Assembly (NCBI RefSeq): GCF_000166715.1
Contig: NZ_AEMI01000020.1
Span: 1-64,000, forward strand
Length of the DNA: 64,000 bases
Direction of reading: 5' to 3'
Source: Leuconostoc gelidum subsp. gelidum KCTC 3527
GTDB taxonomy: Bacteria > Bacillota > Bacilli > Lactobacillales > Lactobacillaceae
This document shows positions 2,980 through 46,257 of this stretch, piece after piece. The translations under genes and the position numbers were made by a program. Each line of letters opens with the position of its first letter. Within the stretch, counting starts at the first letter, position 1. The notes beneath the pieces are model-generated. The model was not told the DNA's origin. It made no database searches and was given only the letters and a program-made list of their open reading frames with translations.

Positions 2980-3948
2980 TTAATTAGTGTTAACACGTGC
3001 CAATGATGCTGCGCCAATGACGCCAGCATCATTACCTAATTCGGCTAATTTAACACGTGTTGTACTTCTGACTGTTGGAAATGCAAATGTTTGCCAATTT
3101 TTTTCTACACGGGCACGTAAAAACTCACCCGCTGCGGCCACACCACCACCGATAACAACGGCTGATGGATTTAATATGTTAGACATAGCTGCTGTAGCAT
3201 AGCCTAAGTAATATGCCACTTTATCAATGACCTTATTAGCCAAAAAATCACCATCTTTTGCTAAATCAAACACAATTTTTGAAGTGACTTCATCCCCATC
3301 GGCAATTAATTGTTTTAGCTTTGATGAACCAACATACTCTTCAGAAAAATCTTGTGCTAAGTGTACAACACCAGTCGCCGAAGTATATTGTTCCAAGCAA
3401 CCTTTGTTCCCACAAGTACACAAGTAACCATTGGGCTCAACAACAACATGCCCAATTTCACCCCCTGCACCGGCAGTTCCATGAATCAGTTGGCCATTGG
3501 ACACTAAGCCCCCACCAACACCGGTACCAAGTGTGATAAATGATACTTCGTCATCATTATTACCAGCACCTCTCCAAGCCTCACCAAGTGCTGCAGCGTT
3601 AGCGTCATTGTCCAGTGTCAACGAAAACCCAGTACCAGATTCAATGTCTGCTTTAACACTTTGTTCTGTCTTCCAATTTAAGTTATAAGCCCCAGTCACA
3701 GTGCCAGTTGTCCGGTTTACCGTCCCAGGTGTGCCCATACCAATACCAATCACACGTTTTGGATCTAATTGATATAAGTCAAGGTGATGATTAATTGATT
3801 CAATAATATCTGGTACAATATGTACACCATCATCAAAAACATTCGTTTTAATTGACCATTTTTGTTGAATTTCGCCAGCTTCAGTCAAAATAGCAAACTT
3901 AATTGTTGTGCCACCAAGGTCAACACCGATTAATTTATCTTTAGCCAT
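2980..3948 (-). CDS. glcK: Glucokinase (ROK family)
   Basis: ATP-dependent phosphorylation of cytosolic glucose to glucose-6-phosphate. From the start at MAKDKLIGVD the 322-residue protein shows the phosphate-binding GVDLGGTT at residues 8-15, the catalytic aspartate in LDNDANAA (about 115), a second phosphate loop GTGVGGG, and the ROK zinc site built from His167 (GEIGH) and a CTCGNKGC cluster. The frame is open nine codons further upstream, but that extension lies inside a stem-loop and is not family sequence, so I reject it. The start ATG has no close SD; a strong AGGAGG lies 68 nt upstream on the far side of the stem-loop. The order rhomboid-yqgQ-glcK matches that of Bacillus subtilis. Confidence 0.96.
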   Translation of the reverse strand: MAKDKLIGVDLGGTTIKFAILTEAGEIQQKWSIKTNVFDDGVHIVPDIIESINHHLDLYQLDPKRVIGIGMGTPGTVNRTTGTVTGAYNLNWKTEQSVKADIESGTGFSLTLDNDANAAALGEAWRGAGNNDDEVSFITLGTGVGGGLVSNGQLIHGTAGAGGEIGHVVVEPNGYLCTCGNKGCLEQYTSATGVVHLAQDFSEEYVGSSKLKQLIADGDEVTSKIVFDLAKDGDFLANKVIDKVAYYLGYATAAMSNILNPSAVVIGGGVAAAGEFLRARVEKNWQTFAFPTVRSTTRVKLAELGNDAGVIGAASLARVNTN

Positions 3949-3958
3949 TATCTTAAAA

Positions 3959-4022
3959 GTGCAACGTACCGCCATAGACGAGATTAAATCTCTATCAAAC
4001 GGTACAGCACACGTTTCCTCCT
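3959..4022 (-). promoter_or_regulatory. glcK leader: SD, long stem-loop, then start codon
   Basis: On the minus strand AGGAGG (4022-4017) is followed after 6 nt by an imperfect stem-loop spanning 4010-3959. It is built from GTGC/GCAC, GTACCG/CGGTAC, ATA/TAT and GAGAT/ATCTC with a TTA loop. Ten nt further is the glcK ATG at 3948. No other good SD is present. If the hairpin folds, SD and ATG are brought to about 16 nt. An alternative is an 8-codon leader peptide from GTG at 4010, which is 6 nt after the SD. Confidence 0.6.
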
Positions 4023-18120: not shown

Positions 18121-19419
18121 TTACTTATCGCTTTTTTTCAACATATAATCATGATCCAAGGCTATTAAATGCGCATATGATTCACGCGTAACAATTAATT
18201 GATGCTTGCCGTTTTCAACAAATACGACAGCTGGTCTTGGATTACGATTATAATTTGACGCCATAGCATATCCGTACGCGCCAGTTGCCAAAACAGATAA
18301 AATATCGCCAGGTTTGGTTTTCGGTAACGCTTGTTGCCATACTAACACATCCCCTGATTCACAATATTTACCTGCCACACGCACAACTTCTTGGGTTGAT
18401 GCGTTGGGGTTATTGGCTAATATTGCGTCATAATTTGCCTGATACAACGCTGGCCGAATATTATCCCCCATACCACCGTCAACTGCTAAGTAGTGACGTA
18501 AATCAGGAATATCCTTCCTTGACCCAATCGTATAAAGTGTTTGCCCTGCTGGACCGACAATTGAACGCCCTGGCTCAATCCAAATTTCCGGCATTTTCCA
18601 ATCATACTCGGCTGCTTTACCCTTCAAAGTACGGATAATCGCATCTGCATACTCACTTTCAGGTAATGGTTCATCTTCTGACGTGTAACGAATACCAAAA
18701 CCACCACCAACATTGATAACTTCTGGTTGAAATCCCCAACTTTCAGCCGTCTCTGCGAGTAGTGCAGCATTTTTTTCAAAACCGGTCACATCAAAAATTT
18801 GTGATCCGATGTGTGCATGGAGTCCACGCAGATTAAAATTTTCATTCTGTTTAGCAATGTCATAAGCTGCCTTAGCTTGTCCCGTTAACAAATCAAATCC
18901 AAATTTAGAATCTTGTTGCCCAGTACTAATGAATTCATGTGTATGGGCCGATATGCCTGGTGAAATTCGCAATAATATATCTTGTTTCACACCATTTTCA
19001 GTAGTAATTTCTGACAATAATTGTAATTCCAAGAAATTATCGACAATAATTGTTCCGACACCCTCGGTAACTGCCATGGTGAGTTCTTCCCAACTTTTAT
19101 TGTTACCATTAAAACTTAGATGTTTAGGATCAAAGCCAGCTGCTAATGCCGTGTAGAGTTCACCACCGGAGACAATATCAGCATGGATTCCTTCTTGCTG
19201 TGCCACTTGATAAATGGCTTTGGTAGCAAATGCTTTAGACGCGTAACTCACGACATAAGGAACATGTTCTTTTTCAAAAATAGCCTTAAAATCACGCATA
19301 GTTTGACGAATTTTAGTAACATCGTATACATATAATGGTGTCCCATAAGTTTTTGCTAATTCAATTGCGTCAACCTCACCGATTGTCAAATGTTGTGCCG
19401 TATTTACTGGGTAGCTCAT
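18121..19419 (-). CDS. lysA: Diaminopimelate decarboxylase
   Basis: Last step of lysine synthesis: PLP-dependent decarboxylation of meso-diaminopimelate. The 432-residue fold-III protein shows the PLP lysine (Lys62 in VSYASKA), the glycine loop VGGGFGIRY, EPGRSIVGPAG and the active-site cysteine motif CESGD. It is the first gene of the operon lysA-dapD-deacetylase-dapA-dapB and has a good SD (TAGGAGAG). A promoter and a full lysine riboswitch with terminator lie in the 360 nt upstream, so high lysine should stop transcription before this gene. Confidence 0.97.
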   Translation of the reverse strand: MSYPVNTAQHLTIGEVDAIELAKTYGTPLYVYDVTKIRQTMRDFKAIFEKEHVPYVVSYASKAFATKAIYQVAQQEGIHADIVSGGELYTALAAGFDPKHLSFNGNNKSWEELTMAVTEGVGTIIVDNFLELQLLSEITTENGVKQDILLRISPGISAHTHEFISTGQQDSKFGFDLLTGQAKAAYDIAKQNENFNLRGLHAHIGSQIFDVTGFEKNAALLAETAESWGFQPEVINVGGGFGIRYTSEDEPLPESEYADAIIRTLKGKAAEYDWKMPEIWIEPGRSIVGPAGQTLYTIGSRKDIPDLRHYLAVDGGMGDNIRPALYQANYDAILANNPNASTQEVVRVAGKYCESGDVLVWQQALPKTKPGDILSVLATGAYGYAMASNYNRNPRPAVVFVENGKHQLIVTRESYAHLIALDHDYMLKKSDK

Positions 19420-19530: not shown

Positions 19531-19550
19531 GTGTTTAGCAATTTTGACTG

Positions 19551-19720
19551 TTTCCATAGCTCACCGTTATTTCTAACGACAGTCTAATAGTTATTAGCTA
19601 TTAGCCCAACAAATATCTCCTTTGAAGACGATTCATTTCGGCGATATCCCCTTTTACTTGGTTAAACTGTTATAACAGTTTAACCAAGCGACTCATGTCA
19701 ATCGCGACCTCTATGTGAAA
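19551..19720 (-). promoter_or_regulatory. Lysine riboswitch (L-box) aptamer
   Basis: The conserved L-box blocks appear in order on the minus strand: CATAGAGGTCGCGA, TGACATGAG, AAAGGGGATATCGCCGAA, GTTGGGCT, AGACTGTC and GGTGAGCTATG. The P1 helix is closed by TTTC-CATAG (19720-19711) pairing with CTATG-GAAA (19559-19551). P2 ends in a perfect 14-bp or longer hairpin (CTTGGTTAAACTG with CAGTTTAACCAAG), and P5 is CGTTA-GAAA-TAACG. The family binds lysine and switches the downstream terminator. It controls lysA and the four dap genes. Confidence 0.97.
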
Positions 19721-19741
19721 TTAAATTTTTATATTGTAGTA

Positions 19742-22771: not shown

Positions 22772-22816
22772 GTATTTCGTCAAACCAAACAAGGCTTGCG
22801 AGAAACACGTTCCCCT
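22772..22816 (-). promoter_or_regulatory. dedA leader: SD, stem-loop, then start codon
   Basis: AGGGG (22816-22812) is followed by a two-part stem: GTGTTTC (22808-22802) with GAAATAC (22778-22772), and CAAGCC (22798-22793) with GGTTTG (22786-22781), loop TTGTTT. The ATG is 9 nt further at 22762. There is no SD between stem and ATG. Folded spacing is about 12 nt. Confidence 0.6.
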
Positions 22817-23546: not shown

Positions 23547-23570
23547 TTTAATAGTTCACTTATAATAAGA

Positions 23571-23649
23571 AAGGTGCCAAGCCGCTCTCTCAAAGTACTG
23601 TCAAGTTGCAGACCATCCAGAGTGCCTTAATCTTGGCAAACATAAAACT
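23571..23649 (+). promoter_or_regulatory. Structured leader of the PnuC-like gene, candidate NAD-related riboswitch
   Basis: TGCCAAG (23575-23581) pairs perfectly with CTTGGCA (23632-23638), enclosing a second stem GCTCT/AGAGT and further pairable sequence; the ATG is 11 nt past the closing strand. A TATAAT box at 23561-23566 would start transcription right at the stem. An NAD+-II (pnuC motif) riboswitch class is known upstream of pnuC in related bacteria; I could not verify the consensus, so only the structure and position are claimed. Confidence 0.5.
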
Positions 23650-37552: not shown

Positions 37553-37585
37553 GCGTTTAACGATAAATTATCAAACGCTTCCCTT
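37553..37585 (-). promoter_or_regulatory. rluD-family leader: SD, stem-loop, then start codon
   Basis: AAGGG (37585-37581) is followed 2 nt later by a stem: GCGTTT (37578-37573) with AAACGC (37558-37553), plus GATA/TATC inside with a 3-nt bulge. The ATG is 11 nt further. The nearer ATG at 37552 is followed by a stop after one codon. A TTG 6 nt after the SD would open a 5-codon leader peptide. Confidence 0.6.
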
Positions 37586-44248: not shown

Positions 44249-44293
44249 TTGCATCCGACAAAAAACAACCCTTCGGATGCAATGTATTCTCCT
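44249..44293 (-). promoter_or_regulatory. rnz leader: SD, perfect 10-bp stem-loop, then start codon
   Basis: AGGAG (44293-44289) is followed 6 nt later by TTGCATCCGA (44282-44273), which pairs without mismatch with TCGGATGCAA (44258-44249) around a 14-nt loop. The ATG is 13 nt further at 44235. No other SD lies next to the ATG. A TTG 6 nt after the SD is a possible alternative initiation site in another frame. Confidence 0.65.
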
Positions 44294-45951: not shown

Positions 45952-46257
45952 ACTTAATTATACTGCGCACACGATTGCGTACGCTTCCTCCATTTCGTTT
46001 AAGTCAGCTTCGTCTCGATTAACTCATTGAAACAGTGACAATATCATCAATATTACATCTCTAGCTTATCATATTTTCGACAGGCATGTTTAGATTAACC
46101 ATCGCTTTTTTAAGTTAAAAGCACCTTTTTGTCTATACTATCTATTGAAAGCGCAAACCAGGTATTGTGACATGAAAGCGTTATAATAGATGTTAAGGAG
46201 GCTTGATCAATTGCGATCAATCATCCAATACTTGCTTTTGAAAGGCGGTTTGAGTTC
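45952..46257. other. Divergent intergenic region between panE and the 42-aa ORF
   Basis: It holds the panE leader, and on the plus strand a TATAAT box at 46182-46187 followed by AAGGAGG at 46195-46201. A TTGATC/GATCAA inverted repeat (46203-46220) follows that SD. No gene is seen. Confidence 0.5.
45965..45991 (-). promoter_or_regulatory. panE leader: SD, 8-bp stem-loop, then start codon
   Basis: GGAGGAA (45991-45985) is directly followed by GCGTACGC (45984-45977), which pairs with GTGTGCGC (45972-45965) around AATC. The ATG is 13 nt further. A TATAAT sequence (45962-45957) between the stem and the ATG offers a second reading: a leaderless transcript, but no -35 supports it. Confidence 0.6.

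Follow-up and report, generated by a model that had tools for sequence, protein, structure and literature searches.

In the 64,000-nucleotide window (the whole stretch of Leuconostoc gelidum subsp. gelidum KCTC 3527 DNA that was analysed), the leaders of five genes, glcK, dedA, rluD, rnz and panE, carry a strong Shine-Dalgarno sequence (SD) approximately 35–70 nt from the AUG, with the interval occupied by one hairpin (Table 1). We consider it likely, from sequence comparison, that these leaders are split ribosome-binding sites like those of bacteriophage T4 genes 38 and 25, used genus-wide in a cellular genome. Their anatomy, strand, conservation, covariation and phylogenetic range are directly supported.

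Table 1. Coordinates of the leader features in the window
Gene	Feature	Positions	Strand	Basis or detail
glcK	Coding sequence, ROK glucokinase (PF00480); protein begins MAKDKLIGVDLGG	2980..3948	-	ATG start 3948 (3946-3948)
glcK	SD, AGGAGG	4017..4022	-	Sequence and pairing with the 16S 3' end
glcK	Spacer hairpin, base GUGUG/GCAC, upper stem approximately GUACCG/CGGUAC	3959..4012	-	z -4.68 and covariation between relatives
glcK	Unpaired tail UUUUAAGAUA, 10 nt, hairpin to AUG	3949..3958	-	Folding
dedA	SD, AGGGGA	22811..22816	-	Sequence and duplex
dedA	Spacer hairpin, 9-nt tail to ATG 22762	22772..22808	-	z -2.62
rluD	SD, AAGGGAA	37579..37585	-	Leader scan
rluD	Spacer hairpin, 9 bp, 11-nt tail to ATG 37541	37553..37578	-	z -2.84
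rnz	SD, AGGAGA	44288..44293	-	Leader display
rnz	Spacer hairpin, 10 bp, 13-nt tail to ATG 44235	44249..44282	-	z -3.00
panE	SD, GGAGG	45987..45991	-	Leader scan
panE	Spacer hairpin, 8 bp, 13-nt tail to ATG 45951	45965..45984	-	z -3.14
pnuC	Distal SD-like sequence, GAAAGG	23569..23574	+	Invariant in 8 species
pnuC	Structured leader element of conserved sequence, lying between SD and ATG 23650	23575..23638	+	Covariation and conservation

The coordinates given for glcK in a preliminary description of this DNA were correct: AGGAGG lies 68 nt from the ATG and a stem-loop fills the gap. When folded, the interval reached -22.3 kcal/mol (z -4.68), a value equalled by none of 200 shuffled sequences. 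The distal SD forms a duplex of -10.2 kcal/mol with the 3' end of the 16S rRNA, which carries a normal anti-SD in this genome, and the best duplex close to the ATG reaches only -0.8 kcal/mol. The fivefold recurrence of the layout in the window, claimed in the same description, was confirmed by folding (z -2.62 to -4.68); its statement that no SD adjoins the AUG holds for glcK and is weaker for rnz, where a near match of -5.2 kcal/mol is present. A strong distal SD was found in every Leuconostoc glcK leader compared. As 14 of the 18 split glcK leaders contain an in-frame stop between the SD and the AUG, the true start of glcK is placed at 3948, not at 3975. The in-frame ATG favoured by the ORF finder (3975, minus strand) sits within the hairpin, and automated annotation from it would lengthen GlcK by nine residues (MAVRCTFKI). 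The closest named GlcK loci were from L. inhae (95–98%). A record labelled L. inhae KCTC 3774 (G004, L002; marked unverified) has the glcK leader of the near relative G005, unlike that of L. inhae DSM 15101, and its species label therefore looks wrong.

Leaders of eight families (glcK, dedA, rluD, rnz, panE, an Asp23-family gene, a DUF1831 gene and mscL) were compared across up to 19 Leuconostoc genomes. A fixed rule applied to 149 leaders scored 124 as split (SD-hairpin-AUG), 21 as canonical and 4 as unclear; the DUF1831 leader of G006 is canonical by this rule and split by eye, and in the mesenteroides-like clade the rnz and rluD calls are weak. As in a T4-type split ribosome-binding site, the 124 split leaders have a distant SD without a proximal one, and the stem reduces the spacing to a functional value: the effective spacing (tail plus lead) was mostly approximately 8–16 nt, slightly above the 6–9 nt that mostly separates GGAGG from ATG at canonical sites of the same genome. 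The mean hairpin z was -3.22, with z < -2 in 94 of 117. The insert from the SD window to the AUG measured 27–106 nt in the 124 split leaders, and the hairpins themselves approximately 14–93 nt (median 38). The stem mostly begins -1 to +5 nt past the GGAGG equivalent, and of the 124 stems 90 end 9–11 nt short of the AUG, which makes this the constrained dimension. Mean pairwise identity was 0.68–1.00 for the SD heptamer and 0.32–0.35, near random, for the stem letters. The Asp23 gene of G008 has a 106-nt insert folding at -33.9 kcal/mol, and the glcK leader has a short perfect stem in L. rapi and a stem nearly without G-C pairs in L. palmae. A single covariance model is a poor tool for such hairpins, because they have nothing in common beyond their geometry and a weak stem-base motif; the use of one model for all was rejected, hairpin sequence and length being unrelated.

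The compensatory changes in relatives that had been proposed as a check were sought and found, with architecture and pairing kept and letters not. Between the genome under study and G007, 33 pairs had changed; 25 still pair, and 8 do so via changes on both sides (approximately 1.4 expected). The covariation score was reached in 0 (rnz), 4 (rluD) and 19 (panE) of 500 shuffles; such counts are limited by the few sequences and their common ancestry, and they agree across genes. In the rluD structure 100% of the cells were paired and 3 pairs had changed on both sides, and sliding the rluD, panE and rnz structures as a control lowered pairing to 5–65%. Structure kept with compensatory change is a further property by which we assign the leaders to the T4 type.

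The mRNA strand folded better than its complement in 105 of the 124 unfiltered SD-AUG intervals, by a mean of 3.89 kcal/mol; in shuffled intervals the advantage was 1.35 kcal/mol (79 better, 44 worse). This bias argues that the element acts as RNA. Dyads serving at the DNA level, whether transcription factor operators or promoter-proximal palindromes falling by chance between the SD and the AUG, would account for perfect dyads such as the stem of approximately 20 bp in the DUF1831 leader of G007. They are nonetheless highly improbable as a general explanation, since G-U pairs favour the mRNA strand over the complement by 3.9 kcal/mol, the stem base holds a fixed distance from the AUG, and no sequence beyond the stem base is common to different genes. 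In 50 of 111 leaders the best -10 box lies 21–30 nt upstream of the SD, and from this clustering the SD and the hairpin are probably on one transcript. In-frame stops within the SD-AUG interval (70 of 106 leaders, 67 in shuffles) were not depleted, and interval lengths were spread at random over all three residues modulo 3. The interval is thus non-coding, and an N-terminal extension of the gene through it was rejected on the same grounds.

Similar strings at the start of the 5' arm had been noticed in glcK, dedA, rluD and panE, and the resemblance is real: of 106 split leaders, 81 had a purine-pyrimidine-G triplet 1–6 nt from the SD, where 43 (sd 4.5) were expected. The commonest first four stem letters were GUGU (21) and GCGU (12). 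Across unrelated genes and genera, the stem base tends to 5'-GYGU...ACRC-3', and the remaining stem is unconserved. The motif may arise because pyrimidine runs, which would pair with the SD, are avoided, or because the ribosome recognises it. Simple bridging does not explain the shared GYGU stem base.

The preliminary description also carried a competing view, in which translation from the SD yields a tiny leader peptide with a GTG or TTG start. In a fuller form of this view the peptide could also start with ATG, and the main gene would be translated by reinitiation or regulated by attenuation. GTG or TTG does follow the SD in several genes of the window, and RUG triplets are enriched 1–4 nt past the SD (52 vs 18.5). 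However, this enrichment is confined to a spacing too short for initiation, where ACG and GCG are common too. At 5–9 nt past the SD, start codons were present in 35 of 106 leaders compared with 34.2 by shuffling, so that no excess over chance was seen at a functional SD spacing in these 106 leaders, and AUG was depleted (6 vs 14.3). No start codon was present at 4–10 nt in 65 of the 106, only 6 leader ORFs end within 12 nt of the AUG, and the encoded peptides are unconserved. We therefore disfavour the leader peptide, which we regard as very unlikely.

The recurrence was compared with chance by a strict scan, which required that no SD lie within reach of the best start, that the distal duplex be -7 kcal/mol or lower, and that one hairpin start at most 6 nt after the SD window and end 6–14 nt before the start, with z of -2.3 or lower. 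The scan returned 4 matches among the 55 genes of the window (shuffled mean 0.0), one of them pnuC, a different case. Among 1,387 genes of Leuconostoc and Convivina there were 17 matches, compared with a summed shuffled mean of 2.5, and among 509 genes of Weissella viridescens, W. kandleri and Blautia there were none (shuffled 0.3). The near relative G005 was represented by 800 kb sampled in stretches. A permissive scan (single exterior hairpin, loose energy cut) gave 21 matches against 13.8 in shuffles, which was not significant; chance hairpins are thus common, and weight is placed only on the strict or comparative tests. As the strict scan overlooks dedA and rnz, both genuine cases, the true number of genes is higher than the scan count. 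Further genes with split leaders included pyrR, aroC, mscL, a walK-like gene, the DUF1831 gene, the Asp23-family gene and a purR-like gene, the identities of mscL, DUF1831 and Asp23 having been tested against Pfam and those of the other four being named from the sequence start only. Split leaders may perhaps precede approximately 2% of genes, a figure that is an estimate and not a count.

The glcK leader was split in all 15 Leuconostoc and Convivina loci and in none of 64 loci from other Firmicutes (Weissella, Periweissella, lactobacilli, enterococci, streptococci and clostridia), where 62 were canonical and 2 unclear. In dedA, a canonical SD with no hairpin was present in the clade of G009, G012, G013 and G018 (in G013, TTTAGGGGAACTTT-ATG), and G000 was split. 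The DUF1831 gene and mscL likewise differ between clades, having an ordinary ribosome-binding site in some and a hairpin in others, and two changes on the glcK tree suffice for the split and canonical states of DUF1831. The split form of the Asp23 gene was also present in genera g2, g7 and g8, the other Lactobacillaceae examined being canonical, and its leaders within g2 show compensatory changes (CGTGGGGTTTTTTGCCCCAC, CGTGGAGCCATTGGCTCTGC). Given its presence in these genera, the split form probably goes back to the ancestor shared by this part of the Lactobacillaceae.

Presence in some species and absence in others resembles insertion or deletion, as would be produced by mobile palindromic repeats (MITE- or REP-like) inserted at ribosome-binding sites. 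Such an origin is extremely improbable: hairpins from the same genome show no relation in sequence or length, which refutes a recent common repeat, and the 11 loci with such leaders gave no Rfam match. It is equally hard to credit that the hairpin is excised from the mRNA to leave an ordinary ribosome-binding site. The SD, lead and tail without the hairpin do make a near-canonical site; however, no consensus for an excision or ligation site was seen in the leaders, and we know of no mRNA hairpin-excision machinery in these bacteria.

The pnuC leader (23569-23649, plus strand) contains a conserved structured RNA, GAAAGGTGCCAAGCCGCTCTCTCAAAG...CAGAGTGCCTTAATCTTGGCA, in eight Leuconostoc genomes. 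Its outer stem covaries, with 4 predicted pairs changed on both sides, and the element had no Rfam match at E ≤ 1. Because its SD lies 5' of the element, the element occupies the same slot as the spacer hairpins; it is a riboswitch candidate. In the mesenteroides-like clade (L388-L391), a different conserved hairpin, GGTGCAGTGCTATCCAACGGATACCTATCACTGC, follows the same GAAAGG approximately 50 nt before a pnuC-like start. In the NAD+-II riboswitch (Streptococcus pnuC motif), the ribosome-binding site lies close to the 3' end, and ligand binding is proposed to sequester it (PMC7749635). Both are structured RNAs at the pnuC ribosome-binding site, whereas the Leuconostoc element has its SD on the 5' side. 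Rfam cis-regulatory families at the gathering threshold were absent from the 11 orthologous loci and were represented in the window only by a lysine riboswitch, a known family, at 19549-19721 (minus strand), upstream of the gene at 18121-19419.

The pnuC element, conserved in sequence and riboswitch-like in an equivalent slot, and the common stem-base motif, which a factor could read, would suit a regulatory RNA switch (thermometer, metabolite sensor or protein site) whose folding toggles translation on a signal. For the spacer hairpins, we find this distinctly unlikely. The loops and stems of the eight families are unconserved, with nothing kept that suits a specific ligand; stabilities vary from approximately -2 to -34 kcal/mol; the genes share no common pathway; and some species do without the hairpin.

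In the split ribosome-binding site that we propose, the mRNA would begin slightly upstream of the strong SD, and the SD would base-pair with the ordinary anti-SD of the 16S rRNA. The hairpin would fold out approximately 0–5 nt after the SD, its base setting a 9–11 nt A/U-rich tail and the AUG where the normal spacer would be, and the 30S subunit would start at the AUG with the hairpin still folded. Selection would act on geometry alone, that is, on the presence of a stem whose base keeps a fixed distance to the AUG; under such selection the hairpin letters and length would drift fast, and hairpin gain or loss would be harmless to the gene. The ribosome probably crosses a folded hairpin, and the role of the hairpin is probably mainly structural bridging rather than regulation. 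Counting against the mechanism, the SD core was predicted to be only 47% unpaired when the whole leader was folded, which does not exceed the value in shuffles, and the effective spacing is slightly above the canonical one. Conservation and covariation support the original reading that the hairpin unites the SD and the AUG. A bolder reading, which we hold to be unlikely, is that a mode of initiation of its own has evolved in the Leuconostoc lineage. Next to the SD helix, the ribosome or a bound factor would read the stem base 5'-GYGU...ACRC-3', and hairpins of any length would be tolerated; structured spacers would form a standing, freely evolving class of ribosome-binding site, into which ligand-binding RNAs, as at pnuC, would plug as ON switches.

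At E. coli thrS the ribosome accommodates a long hairpin with no unfolding, as is proposed for Leuconostoc. The thrS hairpin lies upstream of the SD, between the SD and the standby region, unlike the Leuconostoc hairpin, which lies between the SD and the AUG. The thrS ribosome-binding site is split: a long hairpin makes up domain 2, and domain 3 is the single-stranded site of binding (PMC3936740). Counterparts are also found in T4, where a stem shortens the SD-AUG spacing from 22 to 5 nt in gene 38 and from 27 to 11 nt in gene 25; mutations support both cases, and the gene 25 structure has been probed as well (Nivinskas 1999; Malys & Nivinskas 2009; PMC3014915). In both settings the SD is too distant and an intervening stem cuts the effective spacing, and the Leuconostoc leaders are clade-limited, as is the gene 25 structure, which is conserved in close T-even phages only (PMC3014915). 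Unlike these two phage genes, the Leuconostoc leaders belong to many chromosomal genes in several bacterial genera, have inserts of up to 106 nt and hairpins of unrelated sequence, and are gained and lost between species. Structure and function are proven for genes 38 and 25, whereas the Leuconostoc leaders are known from sequence comparison. The likeness suggests a shared mechanism, with no sign of common descent. The same idea was tested in a cellular genome by folding 58 E. coli genes that lack a canonical ribosome-binding site, which gave no convincing case (Hon-yaku, PMC1805508), whereas Leuconostoc is positive. In the open-access literature, no earlier Leuconostoc description was found, and structure between the SD and the AUG was found only in the T4 cases; this is weak evidence of novelty, as most subscription journals lay outside the search. 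What is new here is the scale, the cellular setting, the tolerance of length and the turnover.

If the split-site mechanism is true, spacer looping would be a normal, lineage-wide form of bacterial initiation and no phage oddity. Natural orthologs with and without the hairpin, together with dozens of unrelated hairpins that all keep a set distance to the AUG, would provide ready data on the tolerance of the 30S subunit for insertions between the SD and the P site. Gene finders and ribosome-binding-site calculators that expect a spacing of 5–10 nt would misjudge starts and strengths in these food bacteria.
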